A stretch of DNA of 64,000 bases from Paracoccaceae bacterium. Its GTDB lineage: Bacteria > Pseudomonadota > Alphaproteobacteria > Rhodobacterales > Rhodobacteraceae. Position 1 is the first letter of the stretch, and each line of letters begins with the position of its first letter. Below the pieces are notes generated by a model, which saw only the letters and a list, made by a program, of their open reading frames with translations, searched no databases and was not told where the DNA came from. Positions 35,578 through 43,704 of the stretch are shown in pieces. The position numbers were made by a program, and so were the translations under genes. The stretch spans positions 1-64,000 of the forward strand of contig JAQWNW010000042.1 in assembly GCA_029246285.1 (NCBI GenBank), given 5' to 3'.

Positions 35578-37239
35578 ATGAATGCAGATTATGTTATTGT
35601 TGGTGCTGGCAGTGCTGGTTGTGCTCTCGCATACCGGCTTTCGGAAAGTGGGGTTAATTCTGTATTGATAATTGAACATGGTGGCTCAGATGCAGGTCCA
35701 TTAATAAACATGCCAGGTGCACTATCATATCCAATGAATATGCCACGTTATGATTGGGGCTTTAGATCCGAACCGGAAGCCAATCTTAATAATCGTCGAT
35801 TAGCTACGCCCAGAGGCAAAGTAATTGGAGGATCTTCGTCGATAAATGGGATGATTTACGTAAGAGGCCATGCGAAGGATTTTGATTACTGGGAAGAAAG
35901 CGGCGCAACAGGCTGGGCTTACAAGCATATATTACCGTATTATAAAAAAATGGAAAATTGGTCGGCAGGAGGTCACGGTGGTGATGAAACGTGGCGTGGA
36001 AAAGGTGGACCATTGTATGTTAGTCGTGGGCCCCGAAAGAATCCATTAGTAAAAGCCTTCATTGATGCGGGAGAGCAAGCGGGTTATTATCGTGTAGGTG
36101 ATTATAATGGGCATCAACAGGAAGGTTTTGGCCCATATGATATGACCGTCCACAGAGGGCAAAGATGGTCTGCAGCTAAGGCGTATTTGTACCCTGCTTT
36201 GAAAAGATCAAATTGTAATTTAATTAATGCTCTAGCTTTGAAAATAATCACTGAAGATGGTTGTGCGAAAGGCGTTGAAGTTTCTCATAAAGGTGCGGTT
36301 AAAACCATAATTGCAAATAAAGAGGTTATTTTAGCTGCATCTTCAATAAATTCACCAAAATTATTAATGTTATCAGGAATTGGTCCTGCCGCTCAATTAA
36401 AAAAACATGGAATTAATGTCATAGCAGATCGCCCAGGTGTAGGTAAAAACCTGCAAGATCATCTTGAGGTTTATATGCAAATGGCGGCTAGCCAACCAGT
36501 TAGTTTATTTAAGTATTGGAACTTTTGGGGTAAAGCTTACGTTGGGGCTCGTTGGTTGCTAACCAAGACGGGACCTGGTGCAACAAATCAATTTGAAAGT
36601 GCAGGTTTTATTAGATCGGATAAGGGCGTTGAATATCCAGATATTCAATATCATTTCTTACCAATAGCTGTTCGTTATGACGGGCAAGCCACTAGTGAAG
36701 GGCATGGTTTCCAAGCTCACGTAGGCCCAATGCGTTCTCCATCAAGAGGTGAAATTACTTTGAAATCAGGAGATCCTTATCAACCTCCTCGAATACAATT
36801 TAATTACATGTCTACAAAAAAAGATTGGGTTGATTTTCGAAAATGTATTCGATTGACGAGAGAAATCTTTGCTCAGGATGCATTTAAGCCATTTGTGAAG
36901 TACGAAATTCAACCTGGATCGGATGTTAATTCTGATGAAGGGATTGATGAATTTATAAAGAACCATGCAGAAAGTGCATATCATCCGTGTGGAACTTGTA
37001 AAATGGGTAGTGAAACTGACAAATTTGCTGTGGTTGATCCCGAAACTAAAGTAATCGGAGTTCAAAATCTTCGCGTGGTGGATAGCTCAGTTTTCCCGAG
37101 AATTACTAATGGTAATTTGAATGCACCTTCGATTATGACAGGCGAAAAAGCTGCTGATCATATATTGGGGAGAGATTTATTGTCTCCCTCTAATGTTGAA
37201 CCTTGGATAAATCCTAATTGGAAGAGAAGCCAGAGATAA
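35578..37239 (+). CDS. GMC-family FAD-dependent oxidoreductase, choline dehydrogenase-like
   Basis: This is a 553-residue flavoenzyme of the glucose-methanol-choline family, the usual length for BetA-type enzymes. The FAD-binding motif is [16 protein letters not shown] (residues 6-21), with the [16 protein letters not shown] signature near 77. The catalytic His is in [13 protein letters not shown] near 463, and the C-terminal region has [18 protein letters not shown]. Choline dehydrogenase makes betaine aldehyde, but many marine paralogues oxidise other alcohols, and no betaine aldehyde dehydrogenase is next to it. Strong ribosome site: GATGAGA before the ATG. It precedes the 2-hydroxyacid dehydrogenase by 2 bases. 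Confidence 0.85.
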
Positions 37240-38242: not shown

Positions 38243-39286
38243 ATGCTTAGAAAAAAGCTGGGATCAACAGATCTAGAAATATCGGAAATTTGCTTAGGTT
38301 CGATGACTTGGGGAACGCAAAATAACAAGAATGATGCATTTGAGCAGATAGATATGGCTTTAGACCATAATGTAAATATTATTGATACTGCTGAGATGTA
38401 CCCTGTGAATCCATTGTCAAAGGAGACACAGGGGAATTCCGAAAAAATTATAGGAGACTGGATAAAAAAATCAAAGAGGCGCGATGAAGTGATTATTGCA
38501 ACGAAAGTTTCGGGCAAAGGGTATCAAGCGGTTCGCAAAGGAGCGCCAATTTCTCAAAAAACGATAAGGATTGCTCTGGAGAATTCTCTTCGGAATTTAA
38601 GTTCGGAGTACGTTGATCTCTATCAGTTACATTGGCCTAATAGAGGCTCTTACATGTTTAGACAAAATTGGAATTATGACCCTACATTACAATCAACAGA
38701 TGAGGCATTGGATCACTTTTTAGATGTTTTGGAGGCAATAAAAAAGCTAATTTCTGAAGGAAAAATAAGACATTTTGGACTCTCAAATGAAAGCGCATGG
38801 GGCGTGGCTACTTGGATAAAATTAAGTGAAAAATATAATTTACCTCGAGTAGTTTCAATACAGAATGAATACTCATTACTTTGTAGGTTATTTGATACCG
38901 ATTTAGCGGAATTATCGCATCATGAAAATGTTGGATTGTTAGCATTTTCACCATTAGCTGCAGGCCTTTTATCTGGTAAGTACCAGAATGGCGTTATTCC
39001 AGAAGGATCAAGAATGTCGATTGTGCCTAATCTTGGAGGTAGAGTGTCGGAGAATGCCTTTAATGCAATTAATTGTTATATCGCTGTTGCAAAAAAGTTT
39101 AACATAGACCCATGCCAAATGGCTCTTGCCTTTTGTAGATCGAGAGGTTTTGTGAGCTCTGCTATTATTGGAGCTACAAAAAAGGCCCAACTTAAGAACG
39201 CTCTAGAATCAACTGCTTTAAAGCTAAACGATGAGATTCTTCAAGAAATAGGTAATATTCATAAACGTTATCCTATGCCATACTGA
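38243..39286 (+). CDS. Aldo/keto reductase (Tas-like)
   Basis: This is a 347-residue NADP(H)-dependent aldo/keto reductase resembling E. coli Tas. The TIM barrel begins with LGSTDLEISEICLGSMTWG. The catalytic tetrad is visible as Asp in NIIDTAEMYP near residue 48, the Tyr in the same motif, Lys in IIATKVSG near 84, and His in LYQLHWPNRG near 127. The cofactor-binding C-terminal part has FSPLAAGLLSGKYQNG near 232 and AIIGATKKAQL near 312. It lies in the middle of the catabolic run. The substrate is an unknown aldehyde or ketone. Confidence 0.85.
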   Translation: MLRKKLGSTDLEISEICLGSMTWGTQNNKNDAFEQIDMALDHNVNIIDTAEMYPVNPLSKETQGNSEKIIGDWIKKSKRRDEVIIATKVSGKGYQAVRKGAPISQKTIRIALENSLRNLSSEYVDLYQLHWPNRGSYMFRQNWNYDPTLQSTDEALDHFLDVLEAIKKLISEGKIRHFGLSNESAWGVATWIKLSEKYNLPRVVSIQNEYSLLCRLFDTDLAELSHHENVGLLAFSPLAAGLLSGKYQNGVIPEGSRMSIVPNLGGRVSENAFNAINCYIAVAKKFNIDPCQMALAFCRSRGFVSSAIIGATKKAQLKNALESTALKLNDEILQEIGNIHKRYPMPY

Positions 39287-39384: not shown

Positions 39385-40299
39385 ATGCCATTAGAAATGA
39401 ATCGAGAAGTCTTTATCACTTGTGCTGTAACTGGATCCGGGTCTACTCAGGACAGATCCCCAAACGTACCGCGGTCTCCAAAAGAGATAGCCGATAGTGC
39501 GATTTCAGCTGCAGAAGCTGGCGCGGCGATAGTCCATTGCCATGTCAGGGATCCCGAGAGTGGGTCTCCGTCGCGTAGATTGGATTATTATCGCGAAGTC
39601 ACCAGTTTGATTAGATCTTCTAAGGTGGATGTTATTCTTAATTTAACTGCCGGAATGGGTGGAGATGTTGTATTTGGCGGTGTTGAAACTCCTTTACCGT
39701 TGAATGTTAATGGTACTGATATGGTTGGGTCTTCGGAAAGAGTCGCTCATGTTGCAGAGTGTTTGCCGGAAATTTGCACGTTAGATTGTGGAACAATGAA
39801 TTTTGCGGAAGCGGATTATGTTATGACAAACACGCCTGGTGTTTTACAGGAGATGGGTCAGCAAATGACTGCATTAGGAGTAAAGCCAGAAATTGAGGCA
39901 TTTGATACAGGCCATCTTTGGTACGCAAAACAGCTTGTTTCGGACGGGATTTTAGAACCTGATGCCCTTGTACAACTTTGTATGGGGGTGCCTTGGGGAG
40001 CTCCAGATGATTTAAATACATTTTTAGCAATGGTAAATAATGTTCCAAAAAATTGGACCTTTTCTGCTTTTGGATTGGGACGAAATCAAATGCCTTACGT
40101 TGCTGCTAGTGTACTGGCTGGAGGTAATGTTAGAGTAGGGCTTGAAGATAATTTAATGTTAGAAAAAGGTGTTTTAGCGACAAATGAAAGTTTAGTTCTT
40201 CGTGCCTCAAAAATCATAAATGATATGGGTGCCTCAATATTAGGACCAGAGGCCGTACGAAAAAAATTAAAATTGATTAAAAGAAAACCAAATTTCTGA
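39385..40299 (+). CDS. Beta-keto acid cleavage enzyme (BKACE), probable 3-dehydrocarnitine cleavage
   Basis: This is a 304-residue zinc TIM-barrel enzyme of the BKACE (DUF849) family, which cleaves beta-keto acids with acetyl-CoA to give acetoacetate and a new CoA ester. The first metal motif is IVHCHVRDPESG near residue 49, NLTAGMGGD is near 85, and LDCGTMNFAE near 133. The C-terminal part carries FGLGRNQMPYVAASVLAGGNVRVG near 227-250 with the usual metal Glu just after (GLEDN). The neighbouring L-carnitine dehydrogenase points to 3-dehydrocarnitine as substrate, giving betainyl-CoA and acetoacetate. GAAAGGAG lies 8 bases before the ATG. Family is firm. Substrate comes from context. Confidence 0.85.
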   Translation: MPLEMNREVFITCAVTGSGSTQDRSPNVPRSPKEIADSAISAAEAGAAIVHCHVRDPESGSPSRRLDYYREVTSLIRSSKVDVILNLTAGMGGDVVFGGVETPLPLNVNGTDMVGSSERVAHVAECLPEICTLDCGTMNFAEADYVMTNTPGVLQEMGQQMTALGVKPEIEAFDTGHLWYAKQLVSDGILEPDALVQLCMGVPWGAPDDLNTFLAMVNNVPKNWTFSAFGLGRNQMPYVAASVLAGGNVRVGLEDNLMLEKGVLATNESLVLRASKIINDMGASILGPEAVRKKLKLIKRKPNF

Positions 40300-40331
40300 A
40301 GTAGTCTAATTGACTTTTAAAGAAAGGATTG

Positions 40332-41498
40332 ATGATTTATAAAACTTTTCAAAATAATCTTACTTTATGTTTAGGCTCTGCTGACACAGCACTATGTTTG
40401 CCGCCTTTAGCTTACGTATCAGACAAAGTTTTTAAATATGAGAATGAGAACTTTCTTAATAAAGGTTGGGTGCCAATCGGAAGAGCGGATCGTTTGTCTG
40501 AGATTGGCGATTATGAAACCTTGGATGTAAGTGGTCATCCAGTAATTTTAATCAGAGGTAACGACAATCAGCTGAACGCTTTAGCAAACTCTTGCAGACA
40601 CCGAGGGGCTAAATTGCTTGAGGGCAGTGGGAACACAAAGGGAATAAGGTGCCCTTTTCATAGTTGGCTATACCGGATAGATGGCTCTTTTGCAGCGGCG
40701 CCACGAATAGAAACATCAGACGCATTCTTAGAGCGCAACAATGATCTGATACATTACAAGTTAGAGGAAAGATTAGGCTTTTTATTCATAAGTTTAGAAG
40801 AAAAACCAGAAGTAATTGATAAGTGGTTAGGAAATTTTGCTGAGTTACATGAGGATTGGCCAATATCAGAAATGAAGACCACTCGAAAATGGACGAGAGA
40901 ATTCCCTTTTAATTGGAAATGTTTTTTAGATGTTTTTAATGAGTATTATCATCTTCCATTTGTTCACCGAGATAGTATTGATGCTGTTTATCACACGCCA
41001 AGAGAGGGAGATTTATCAACGGGAAACTTTGCCACTCAGTTTGGTAAAACAGATGGCACTGGCGGATTGCTGGAAAGTCAGCAAAATTATGCATTTGGCA
41101 ATATGCCAGGTTTAAGAGGGGATGCATTGTTAGGTGCTCGATATACCTGGATGTTTCCAACAATGACTTTTGCGTGTTCCAATGATGCAATGTGGGTTTA
41201 TGAAGCACGGCCCAAAGATGAGAGAACTTGTATAGTAACTCAATCAACTTGCTTTCACCCAAGCACTATTGCTCAAGCGAATTTTAAGGAAGTTTCTAAA
41301 ATATATTATGAGAGGATGGATACTGCTTTGGATGAAGATATAATTGCATTAAAAAATCAATTTGCAGGCTTAAATTCTCCTGAAGCAAGCCAAGGACCTT
41401 TTTCGCCAACTTTGGAGCATAATGTAGCTGCATTTGCTAAATGGTATTCAGCAAGGATGTTGAAATCTTTAGAAATTAATAAACAAAGGAATTTATAA
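40332..41498 (+). CDS. Rieske non-heme iron oxygenase alpha subunit, quaternary-amine type
   Basis: This is a 388-residue Rieske oxygenase. The 2Fe-2S motif is Cys-x-His (near 88-90, SCRHRG) and Cys-x2-His (near 107-110, RCPFHSW). The mononuclear iron site is NEYYHLPFVH near 203-212, with the third ligand Asp near 336 (LDEDIIALKNQ). The bridging residue three before the first iron His is Glu. Ring-hydroxylating enzymes have Asp there, whereas carnitine monooxygenase CntA and related quaternary-amine oxygenases have Glu. The gene is between BKACE and carnitine dehydrogenase. No reductase gene is adjacent. Carnitine, betaine or a related amine is a reasonable substrate. The ATG at 40332 is preceded by AGAAAGGA, and a TTG three bases earlier is also possible. 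Confidence 0.85.
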   Translation: MIYKTFQNNLTLCLGSADTALCLPPLAYVSDKVFKYENENFLNKGWVPIGRADRLSEIGDYETLDVSGHPVILIRGNDNQLNALANSCRHRGAKLLEGSGNTKGIRCPFHSWLYRIDGSFAAAPRIETSDAFLERNNDLIHYKLEERLGFLFISLEEKPEVIDKWLGNFAELHEDWPISEMKTTRKWTREFPFNWKCFLDVFNEYYHLPFVHRDSIDAVYHTPREGDLSTGNFATQFGKTDGTGGLLESQQNYAFGNMPGLRGDALLGARYTWMFPTMTFACSNDAMWVYEARPKDERTCIVTQSTCFHPSTIAQANFKEVSKIYYERMDTALDEDIIALKNQFAGLNSPEASQGPFSPTLEHNVAAFAKWYSARMLKSLEINKQRNL

Positions 41499-41500
41499 AT

Positions 41501-42952
41501 ATGTCTGAAACTGTAGCTATTGTTGGTGGTGGTATCATCGGAGGAGGATGGGCAGCCAGGTTCTTACTTAATGGTTGGGAAGTAAGAATTTTTGACCCAG
41601 ATCCTCAATCTGAAAGAAAGATCGGAGAAGTCCTGGAGAATGCTAGGAGATCATTACCGGGTCTTTCTGATGTAGAGATGCCATCTCCTGGTCGCATTAG
41701 ATTTTGTGAGAAGATTGAGGATACGGTATTGGATGCATCCTTTATAATAGAAGCGGTTCCAGAAAGATTGGAAATTAAGCAATCAGTATATAAGCAAATC
41801 GAAAATAAGAATAGCAGATCAATAATTGCGTCCTCAACTTCTGGAATAATGCCAAGTGATCTTCAAAGTAAAATGAAATATCCAGAGCGCTTAATAGTAG
41901 CTCATCCTTTTAATCCAGTATACCTCTTACCTTTAGTTGAATTAGTTGGTGGATCAAAGACTGATGATAAGTTCATAGCTACTGCTCGAGAGCTTTTGAT
42001 AGGTTTAGGTATGCATCCTTTACATTGTCGTGTGGAAATTGAGGGTTTTCTCTCTGATAGGCTTCAGGAGGCATTGTGGAGAGAAGCCTTGTGGCTTTTA
42101 AAAGATAACGTCGCTACAGCAGAAGAATTAGATGCGGCTATAGCCTATGGGCCGGGTCTAAGGTGGGCTCAGATGGGTACAATGCAGACATTTCATCTTG
42201 CTGGTGGTGAGGGTGGAATGCGCGCAATGTTAGCAATGTTTGGACCCTGCCTTAAATGGCCGTGGACAAAATTAATGGATGTCCCTGAGTTGACTCCTGA
42301 TTTTGTTGAAATGGTTGGTGATCAGTGTGAAATACAATCTTCACAGTTTTCACCAAGAGAATTAGAAAAAATTAGAGATAATAACTTAGTTTCCATAATG
42401 AGAGCGTTGAAAGGCCAAAATTGGGGTGCCGGTAGAACTTTAAATGAGTATGATGTGAGAGCAAAAAATACTGACCGCCGTATTCCTGATGAGCCACTAA
42501 ATACTGGGTGTCGCGTGGTTCCTTTGGATTGGACAGATTATAATGGCCACATGAATGAAGCAAGATATCTTCAAGCTTTTTGTGATGCAACAGATAGATT
42601 TATGGTAGAAATTGGCTGTGATGAGAATTATATCAAAACAGGGGGAAGTTACTTTACTGCTGAAACACACATCCGTCATATTGAAGAAGTTTTAGCTGGA
42701 TCGAAAATATTTATTCAAACAACTTGTTTAGAGTCGACCAAGAAAAAAATTCACATATTTCACGAAATGATTGGTGAGAAAGGACAGCTCTTAGCATCAG
42801 GTGAACATTTACTATTGCACGTTAGTTTAGCTACTCGAAAAGTTAGTGAGGCCTCAGAAGCCATTCAAGAAGAGTTAGAAAATTTATCTAAAGAACAAGC
42901 AAATATTCCTACACCTGGAGGTGTAGGACGGCATGTTGGTCAGCCAAAGTGA
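41501..42952 (+). CDS. lcdH: L-carnitine dehydrogenase fused to betainyl-CoA thioesterase
   Basis: This is a two-domain protein of 483 residues. Residues 1-320 form a 3-hydroxyacyl-CoA dehydrogenase-type NAD enzyme (VAIVGGGIIGGGWAARFL at 5-22, IEAVPERLEIK near 88, VAHPFNPVYLLPLVELVGG near 132). In the carnitine branch it oxidises L-carnitine to 3-dehydrocarnitine. Residues about 335-460 form a hotdog thioesterase (VPLDWTDYNGHMNEARYLQ near 343). This fusion is known in alphaproteobacterial carnitine catabolism, where the thioesterase releases glycine betaine from betainyl-CoA. It begins 2 bases after the Rieske gene and overlaps the SDR gene by four, so these genes are co-translated. AAGGA precedes the ATG. 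Confidence 0.9.
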   Translation: MSETVAIVGGGIIGGGWAARFLLNGWEVRIFDPDPQSERKIGEVLENARRSLPGLSDVEMPSPGRIRFCEKIEDTVLDASFIIEAVPERLEIKQSVYKQIENKNSRSIIASSTSGIMPSDLQSKMKYPERLIVAHPFNPVYLLPLVELVGGSKTDDKFIATARELLIGLGMHPLHCRVEIEGFLSDRLQEALWREALWLLKDNVATAEELDAAIAYGPGLRWAQMGTMQTFHLAGGEGGMRAMLAMFGPCLKWPWTKLMDVPELTPDFVEMVGDQCEIQSSQFSPRELEKIRDNNLVSIMRALKGQNWGAGRTLNEYDVRAKNTDRRIPDEPLNTGCRVVPLDWTDYNGHMNEARYLQAFCDATDRFMVEIGCDENYIKTGGSYFTAETHIRHIEEVLAGSKIFIQTTCLESTKKKIHIFHEMIGEKGQLLASGEHLLLHVSLATRKVSEASEAIQEELENLSKEQANIPTPGGVGRHVGQPK

Positions 42953-43704
42953 GGCAACGTGTTTTAATAACAGCTGGTGCAGATGGGATTGGTCTGGAAA
43001 TTGCTAAATGTTTTTTGAAAAAAAATGCTCTCGTTTGGGTTGCTGATTTAAATCAGAATGCAATTGATATTTTACCCAAGTCTATTAATGCTCGATGTGT
43101 AGATGTGTGTGATGAAATCGGTATGAAGGCGCTTTTTGATGAAATAATCAAAACATGGGGAGGTTTAGATGTATTATGTGCAAATGCTGGTATAGCCGGA
43201 CCGACGGCATCAATTGATCACATCAATTTATCAGATTGGCAGCATTGTCTGAAAGTAAATTTAGATGGTACCTTTATAGCTGCAAAGTATGCGGCAAGTA
43301 TTTTTAAAAAACAAGGATCTGGGGTAATTAGCATCACTTCTTCAACTGCGGGACAGTATGGATATCCTAACCGTTCTCCTTATAGCACTGCTAAATGGGG
43401 TGTTTTAGGTTTAATGAAGACCTTGGCAATGGAACTTGGGCCTTTTGGCGTGAGAGTTAATGCAATTTGTCCCGGTGCTGTGGAGGGTGCAAGAATGGAA
43501 AGGGTTATGGCAAGTGAAGCCAAAGCAAGCGGTCAGACAAGAGATGAGATCTATAAAGGTTATGCAAAAGGCACATCAATGCAAAAGTGGGTGGAAGGAT
43601 TAGATATAGCTGAAATGGCAGTGTTTTTGGCGAGCAAGGAGGCTCGTTTTGTATCGGGTCAAACTATCGCTGTTGATGGTGATACCTTTAACCCAAATCC
43701 CTAG
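42949..43704 (+). CDS. SDR family oxidoreductase in the carnitine cluster
   Basis: This is a 251-residue classical SDR. The cofactor motif reads ITAGADGIGLEIA (residues 7-19), unusual in having Ala-Gly-Ala in place of the common Thr-Gly-Gly start. ANAGIAGPTASI is near 78, the catalytic SITSSTAGQYGYPNRSPYSTAKWG near 126-149 (Ser, Tyr, Lys present), and CPGAVEG near 178. An Asp ends strand 2 (WVADLNQN), suggesting NAD rather than NADP. Acetoacetate from the BKACE step could be its substrate (3-hydroxybutyrate dehydrogenase-like), but that is inference. GTG start overlapping lcdH by four bases. It ends the plus-strand run. Confidence 0.82.
   Translation: MRQRVLITAGADGIGLEIAKCFLKKNALVWVADLNQNAIDILPKSINARCVDVCDEIGMKALFDEIIKTWGGLDVLCANAGIAGPTASIDHINLSDWQHCLKVNLDGTFIAAKYAASIFKKQGSGVISITSSTAGQYGYPNRSPYSTAKWGVLGLMKTLAMELGPFGVRVNAICPGAVEGARMERVMASEAKASGQTRDEIYKGYAKGTSMQKWVEGLDIAEMAVFLASKEARFVSGQTIAVDGDTFNPNP

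Follow-up and report, generated by a model that had tools for sequence, protein, structure and literature searches.

An oxygenase gene embedded in a carnitine catabolic cluster

The stretch of DNA analysed here, referred to as the window, comprises 64,000 nucleotides from a metagenome-assembled genome (MAG) of the Rhodobacteraceae (2.27 Mb, 87 contigs, 92% complete). Its subject is a unit of four genes on the forward strand, positions 39385-43704, in which a gene for a Rieske non-haem iron oxygenase stands among genes of L-carnitine breakdown. The order is a BKACE gene (39385..40299), the Rieske gene (40329..41498), a gene for L-carnitine 3-dehydrogenase (CDH) fused to a thioesterase (41501..42952) and a gene for a short-chain dehydrogenase/reductase (SDR; 42949..43704), with intergenic gaps of 29, 2 and -4 bases, and all four open reading frames (ORFs) of a preliminary description of this DNA were confirmed at the same positions. 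The BKACE matched PF05853 with 315 bits, its best relative in the PDB being 3c6c (E 6e-74), and the fusion protein, composed of a 3HCDH and a 4HBT_2 domain (the latter at residues 340-459), scored 666.3 bits against NF005716, above the curated cut-off of 592. Among 33 other CDH genes of the class, whose neighbourhoods were examined within 6.5 kb, BKACE was found near 30. With the fusion above its cut-off and BKACE adjoining, the sequence supports the assignment of the operon core as a predicted route from L-carnitine to glycine betaine, as the preliminary description had proposed. The SDR (adh_short_C2, 169.6 bits) is a recurrent companion of the fusion, homologues of at least 45% identity lying near 7 of the 33 CDH genes, and is possibly a D-carnitine or 3-hydroxybutyrate dehydrogenase.

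Two sister MAGs, G001 and G002, carry the four genes in identical order, so that the arrangement occurs in all three genomes of the genus that were searched; their Rieske proteins are 96% and 70-72% identical to the window enzyme, respectively. Compared with G001, the Rieske gene of the window has a dN/dS ratio of 0.088 (the other three genes range from 0.023 to 0.088), a low value indicating that it is maintained by purifying selection and is not a chance ORF. A scan of genome contigs with the single protein as query returned only the two sister MAGs, a result that an alignment query might extend, and a scan of viral contigs for relatives returned none.

Phylogenetic placement and fold of the Rieske enzyme

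The Rieske gene encodes an alpha subunit of 389 amino acids with the domains PF00355 and PF00848. In a tree of 59 rows it falls in an unnamed clade of 21 (support 100/99), of which 8 belong to the same family as the window and the other 13 to a second family of the class, designated f34. The neighbours of the clade in this tree are uncharacterised Rieske enzymes, and both CntA and GbcA/Stc2 stand apart. The tree leaves out CarAa, NdoB, own_C3 and own_C20, and the 13th Rieske match of the genome, a distant one on contig C79, is in no tree. Approximately unbiased (AU) tests, run after the tree had been seen, rejected grouping of the clade with CntA (p 2.45e-5), with GbcA/Stc2 (p 1.9e-8) and with four aromatic-type enzymes (AntA, BenA and two aromatic-type relatives; p 0.003). 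The phylogeny that the preliminary description had called for, with CntA, GbcA and the stachydrine demethylase Stc2, therefore placed the enzyme with none of the three, and bore out the expectation that it is unlike aromatic ring-hydroxylating enzymes. An identity as GbcA was rejected both by the tree and by score (124.8 bits against a cut-off of 670), and one as CntA by the tree and by the residues of the substrate pocket.

In fold, the enzyme resembles the oxygenases from which the tree separates it. The best PDB match by sequence was CntA (6y8j/6y9c, 140.5 bits). In a Foldseek search with a structure model of pLDDT 93.5 (a model from six rows, at pLDDT 64.8, was not used), the first 13 matches were all CntA chains, followed by Stc2 and 3n0q, which is itself an uncharacterised protein. 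VIA-align Z scores were 36.8-39.0 for the ten entries of CntA, Stc2 and 3n0q (38.0-39.0 for Stc2) and at most 34.9 for aromatic enzymes, and identity to CntA in the structure alignment was 27-29%. The window enzyme thus appears to have the group V frame, and membership of the known group V branches is not supported. No beta-subunit gene lies beside the Rieske gene, whose neighbours are the BKACE and CDH fusion genes; this is a likeness to CntA/YeaW (group Va) and a difference from the alpha3beta3 ring-hydroxylating dioxygenases.

Iron ligands and the bridging glutamate

The Rieske [2Fe-2S] ligands C89, H91, C108 and H111 (40593..40661) are invariant in alignments A1 (six rows including the window) and A3, as are, in A3, the mononuclear iron ligands His208 and His213 (40950..40967) and Asp337 (41337..41339), the last aligned with CntA Asp323; the His-His-Asp set is common to the window enzyme and CntA. 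The stretch L-D-V-F-N-E-Y-Y-H-L-P-F-V-H contains Phe203 (40935..40937), Glu205 (40941..40943), His208 and His213, confirming the earlier observation of a Glu three residues before the first iron His. The position of this bridging Glu is described as that of inter-subunit electron transfer in CntA (PMC7948474, PMC10952381). Glu205 is invariant in A1 and present in 20 of the 21 clade members, Asp taking its place in G1127, and it is a further difference from the aromatic dioxygenases, which have Asp.

The preliminary description had read this Glu as pointing to a CntA-type enzyme, and this part of it does not hold. Across 55 aligned non-aromatic Rieske rows, many of them uncharacterised, the bridging residue was Glu in 52 and Asp in three, one of the three being G1127 from within the window enzyme's own clade, which itself lies outside CntA. 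Glu was also found in 18 of 20 other non-aromatic rows outside three named groups, and in 10 of the 11 (of 12) other Rieske enzymes of the host genome that were examined, the remaining one having Asp. The bridging Glu was therefore rejected as a diagnostic mark of CntA, and CntA, and hence trimethylamine formation, should not be called from it alone. Phe203, conserved in all 21 clade members, aligns with the pi-cation residue Tyr203 of CntA, for which the variant Y203F is reported to be active (PMC7948474); an aromatic residue 203 is nonetheless a weak CntA mark, because Phe or Tyr also occurs in 14 of the 20 rows outside the named groups. A Cys206/Cys209 (CxxC) pair, described as a feature of some group V enzymes (PMC10952381), is absent from the clade, which has Tyr/Leu in 20 of 21 members and Trp/Leu in one. 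With the betaine demethylases GbcA and Stc2 (group Vb) the window enzyme shares the bridging Glu, and it differs from them in lacking Asn203 and the CxxC pair. Overall the preliminary description is partly supported: the carnitine operon and the non-aromatic Rieske enzyme within it stand, and the pointer to CntA does not.

Gene context of the Rieske clade

Several relatives of the window enzyme are also encoded near genes of carnitine metabolism. BKACE or L-carnitine dehydrogenase (LCDH)-like genes were near 5 of the 21 clade loci and near none of 36 other Rieske loci (11 of the host genome, 17 of other genomes and 8 on named plasmids), a difference with a Fisher p of 0.005 that is uncorrected for relatedness, related genomes being counted apart. 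The control set leaves out the CntA-side plasmid operon described below and three loci that were found through their CDH genes and lie close to other Rieske genes (L152, L155, L160). Neither set includes the two closest outside relatives, G136 (L066) and G234 (L068), and no BKACE or LCDH was seen at either.

The fullest arrangement was in G922, from another genus of the family, where a relative 50% identical to the window enzyme lies in one block with genes for aldehyde dehydrogenase (ALDH), luciferase-like monooxygenase (LLM), enoyl-CoA hydratase (ECH), LCDH-like protein, GlxA, BKACE, acyl-CoA dehydrogenase (ACAD) and acyl-CoA ligase, in the order ALDH-Rieske-LLM-ECH-LCDH-like-GlxA-BKACE-ACAD-acyl-CoA ligase. 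G056 and G1127 have the ALDH/Rieske/LLM part of this arrangement, and in the f34 genome G105 an ALDH, a LysR regulator and an LCDH-like gene (328 bits, below the 414 cut-off) lie within 5 kb. An enolase-superfamily gene adjoins the Rieske gene in 11 of the 21 clade members, G105 included, which is 11 of the 13 f34 loci. In a first look with the Rieske query, each of the 16 f34 genomes searched (G105, G234, G332, G409, G813-G824; 2.8-5.3 Mb) yielded 25 to 68 candidates.

A possible gamma-butyrobetaine hydroxylase

From the genes, their linkage and the fold and placement of the oxygenase, we infer a substrate and a reaction. The Rieske enzyme is, somewhat more probably than otherwise, an accessory oxygenase of the carnitine-to-betaine route that acts on a quaternary amine of the carnitine family. 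Its single likeliest step, proposed tentatively from gene context, is the hydroxylation of gamma-butyrobetaine to carnitine, a conversion that precedes 3-dehydrocarnitine in the route described for Pseudomonas (PMC2131755). At other CDH loci this slot is seemingly filled either by the 2-oxoglutarate-dependent gamma-butyrobetaine hydroxylase BBOX or by a set of CoA ligase, dehydrogenase and hydratase. Near the 33 other CDH genes we found ACAD in 10 cases, acyl-CoA ligase in 8 and ECH in 8; a BBOX/TmpA-type gene was near 3 and any Rieske gene near 3, the two never together.

Plasmid operons suggest the same assignment. Ten plasmid records carry a CntA-side Rieske enzyme 69.8-100% identical to that of Pseudomonas sp. 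MPC6, and in all five plasmids examined, those of MPC6, Roseovarius THAF9, Mesorhizobium amorphae, Ruegeria THAF33 and Shinella (NZ_CP034782, NZ_CP045406, NZ_CP015319, NZ_CP045385, NZ_CP132313; L119, L182-L185), its gene comes first in an operon that also encodes BKACE, aminobutyraldehyde dehydrogenase, SDRs and an LCDH-like protein. Against the carnitine cut-off of 414 bits, this LCDH-like protein reaches 250 in MPC6 and 257 in Ruegeria THAF33. A betaine-type ABC transporter lies beside the operon in three of the five, a choline-sulfatase gene in two and a reductase in MPC6. None of the five fetched stretches contains BBOX-type or CoA-route genes, so that hydroxylation would be the sole step from the aldehyde to betainyl-CoA without an enzyme. 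This reading fits the window too, because CDH, BKACE and thioesterase are present there and BBOX is not. In the host genome the only full-length BBOX match scores as TmpA (558.9 against 413.4 bits), and with 92% completeness the absence of BBOX is unproven. This gene (L114:6886-8013, contig C57) encodes a TmpA-type 2-trimethylaminoethylphosphonate dioxygenase (cut-off 400) and lies beside one for a small protein, unscanned, that was taken for an HD-domain partner.

In the proposed scheme, an alpha subunit of an uncharacterised lineage, built into the operon of CDH-thioesterase fusion, BKACE and SDR, would hydroxylate gamma-butyrobetaine, and CDH, BKACE and thioesterase would complete the route from the resulting carnitine. 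The enzyme is possibly a Rieske-type gamma-butyrobetaine hydroxylase, unrelated to BBOX, that supplies carnitine for immediate breakdown; such recruitment would have happened more than once, because a separate, CntA-side Rieske enzyme fills the same gap in the Pseudomonas, Roseovarius, Ruegeria, Mesorhizobium and Shinella operons. We found no report of a Rieske gamma-butyrobetaine hydroxylase in the titles and opening abstract lines of the papers listed by a literature search, subscription papers and preprints lying outside its coverage.

Several observations weigh against this interpretation. At 16 of the 21 clade loci neither BKACE nor an LCDH-like gene is close by; ten of them, all from family f34, adjoin an enolase-superfamily gene. 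The numbers behind the context count are small, some contigs are short, and the LCDH search panel holds the G105 protein itself and proteins of some other counted loci. CoA-route genes are also present at two of the three Rieske-bearing CDH loci (L155, L160), and the host genome has acyl-CoA ligase, ACAD and ECH in two other BKACE/LCDH-like clusters that lack a Rieske gene, indicating that a gamma-butyrobetaine route may exist without the Rieske enzyme. A BBOX-like gene, short of the 414.75 cut-off at 303 bits, adjoins the outside relative in G136 (36% identity); this speaks against a simple replacement of BBOX. Of the CntA pocket residues Tyr225, Phe258, Asn270, Tyr295, Tyr315 and Phe319, the window enzyme has none in a sequence alignment that is weak in this region, and no reductase gene adjoins its own.

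Alternative functions

An unlikely alternative, in our view, is that the clade oxidises a different nitrogen compound, such as an N-heterocyclic betaine, its presence in the carnitine operon having some incidental cause. Such a role would suit the packing of LLM with the Rieske gene in G056, G922 and G1127, accompanied in G056 and G1127 by a flavin reductase domain and an alpha/beta hydrolase, a set reminiscent of the Rut and trigonelline pathways, and it would suit the enolase-superfamily neighbours. The window fusion is, however, a strong match to carnitine 3-dehydrogenase, and G922 unites the ALDH-Rieske-LLM set and BKACE/LCDH-like genes in one cluster. Our search found no literature joining Rieske enzymes with 3-keto-5-aminohexanoate cleavage, or trigonelline with tgnA and a monooxygenase (subscription papers and preprints again outside coverage). 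An N-demethylase acting, in the manner of GbcA or Stc2, on the betaine that the operon yields or on a similar one appears quite improbable. In its favour, glycine betaine is the expected end product of the operon, the fold of Stc2 is one of the closest (Z 39.0), and some f34 relatives lie near genes labelled dimethylglycine dehydrogenase (DMGDH)-like and near a CntA-side Rieske gene; the enzyme nevertheless falls far under the GbcA cut-off and outside the GbcA/Stc2 group, and its residue 203 is Phe, against Asn in 7 of the 8 GbcA/Stc2 rows. Also against this reading, other Rieske genes of the host genome have as neighbours DMGDH-like genes, a betaine-type transporter or genes of the MttB family, which score 308 and 269 bits, under the cut-off of 525. 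DMGDH, DUF1185, ferredoxin-NADP reductase, beta subunit and the L028 transporter are labels assigned from sequence, the proteins being unscanned or matching general domains only. A further point against N-demethylation is that Ruegeria pomeroyi is described as demethylating glycine betaine by a methyltransferase, with gbcAB scarce in ocean data (PMC12478193).

The preliminary description had also offered a trimethylamine-forming branch, in which a CntA-like oxygenase would cleave the C-N bond of carnitine or gamma-butyrobetaine to give trimethylamine and a semialdehyde for oxidation by ALDH. We consider this the least probable of the readings, with indirect support from the ALDH genes beside some relatives: an ALDH gene is near 6 of the 21 clade loci and directly adjoins the Rieske gene in G056, G922 and G1127. 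CntA is the top match by both Foldseek and sequence, and Phe203 and Glu205 are as in group Va. Against this stand the AU test (p 2.5e-5 against the CntA clade) and the missing Cys pair and remaining carnitine-pocket residues; the window cluster also has no ALDH gene and no CntB-type gene beside the Rieske gene, and cleavage would compete with the CDH route of the same operon. Hydroxylation of gamma-butyrobetaine, a step absent from the preliminary description, would fit the wider context at least as well as this branch.

Electron supply

As noted in the preliminary description, no reductase partner lies next to the Rieske gene, and electrons would have to come from a reductase encoded elsewhere. 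The search of the genome that had been suggested did return candidates, three FAD_binding_6 proteins for 13 Rieske matches, although none is in the carnitine cluster. The first is PaaE-type (403 bits, below the 420.8 cut-off), the second, unscanned, was taken for a ferredoxin-NADP reductase from its sequence, and the gene of the third adjoins an Asp-bearing, aromatic-type Rieske gene on contig C21. A reductase is likely shared among the Rieske enzymes, with none dedicated to this one.

Comparison with known carnitine systems

Aerobic carnitine catabolic operons have been described in Pseudomonas aeruginosa (caiX-cdhCAB-hocS, PMC5806209) and in roseobacters (CdhABC, PMC12478193). The window differs from them in its dehydrogenase-thioesterase fusion, the added SDR, the inserted Rieske gene and the lack of a detected GlxA-type regulator. 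Matched gene to function, the three presumably share carnitine dehydrogenase, BKACE and thioesterase. The search of the 64 kb window for a GlxA/CdhR-type regulator gave no match to two GlxA regulators at E 1e-12; such regulators, found near 10 of the 33 other CDH loci, are common and not necessary. The gene set of an Arctic SAR11 island, described as comprising BBOX, CDH, BKACE, thioesterase, choline dehydrogenase and a DMT transporter (PMC12421898), overlaps that of the window, with the 2-oxoglutarate enzyme BBOX there and a Rieske enzyme here.

Marine bacteria draw nitrogen from carnitine and related compounds, and whether this pool ends up as glycine betaine or as trimethylamine depends on the enzymes that supply and consume it. 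A Rieske enzyme in a carnitine operon points to an extra oxygen-using step in carnitine breakdown, perhaps a new route by which carnitine is made from a precursor. Few Rieske enzymes acting on quaternary amines have been solved (CntA, Stc2), and a conserved clade outside CntA and GbcA, tied in part of its members to carnitine catabolism by gene order, is a defined target for assay.

Flanking genes and related clusters

Scans for promoters and terminators found sites no more numerous than in shuffled sequence. Upstream of the unit lie genes for an aldo/keto reductase, a 2-hydroxyacid dehydrogenase, a choline dehydrogenase-like enzyme, an EamA-type transporter and a HisD-like protein. The choline dehydrogenase-like GMC enzyme (35578..37239, forward strand) scored 797.8 bits against TIGR01810 (cut-off 732.1), and the aldo/keto reductase (38243..39286, forward strand; PF00248), a possible operon member, has a 59% identical homologue in a Phaeobacter sp. 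G2 cluster. On the Phaeobacter sp. G2 plasmid (L125:8565-8903), a hypothetical protein of 112 amino acids is encoded between BKACE and the CDH fusion, at the slot of the Rieske gene in the window.

The two Rieske-free clusters of the host genome, on contigs C42 (L112:1-11998) and C26 (L113:2125-15999), are near-duplicates with proteins 81-98% identical. They encode amidase, acyl-CoA ligase, ACAD, BKACE, LCDH-like protein, ECH, LLM, ALDH, RidA, alpha/beta hydrolase and CoA-transferase. Unusual fusions to a flavin reductase domain were seen at L113:13505-15649 and L018:12343-14100, the partner being CoA-transferase family III in one and alpha/beta hydrolase in the other.

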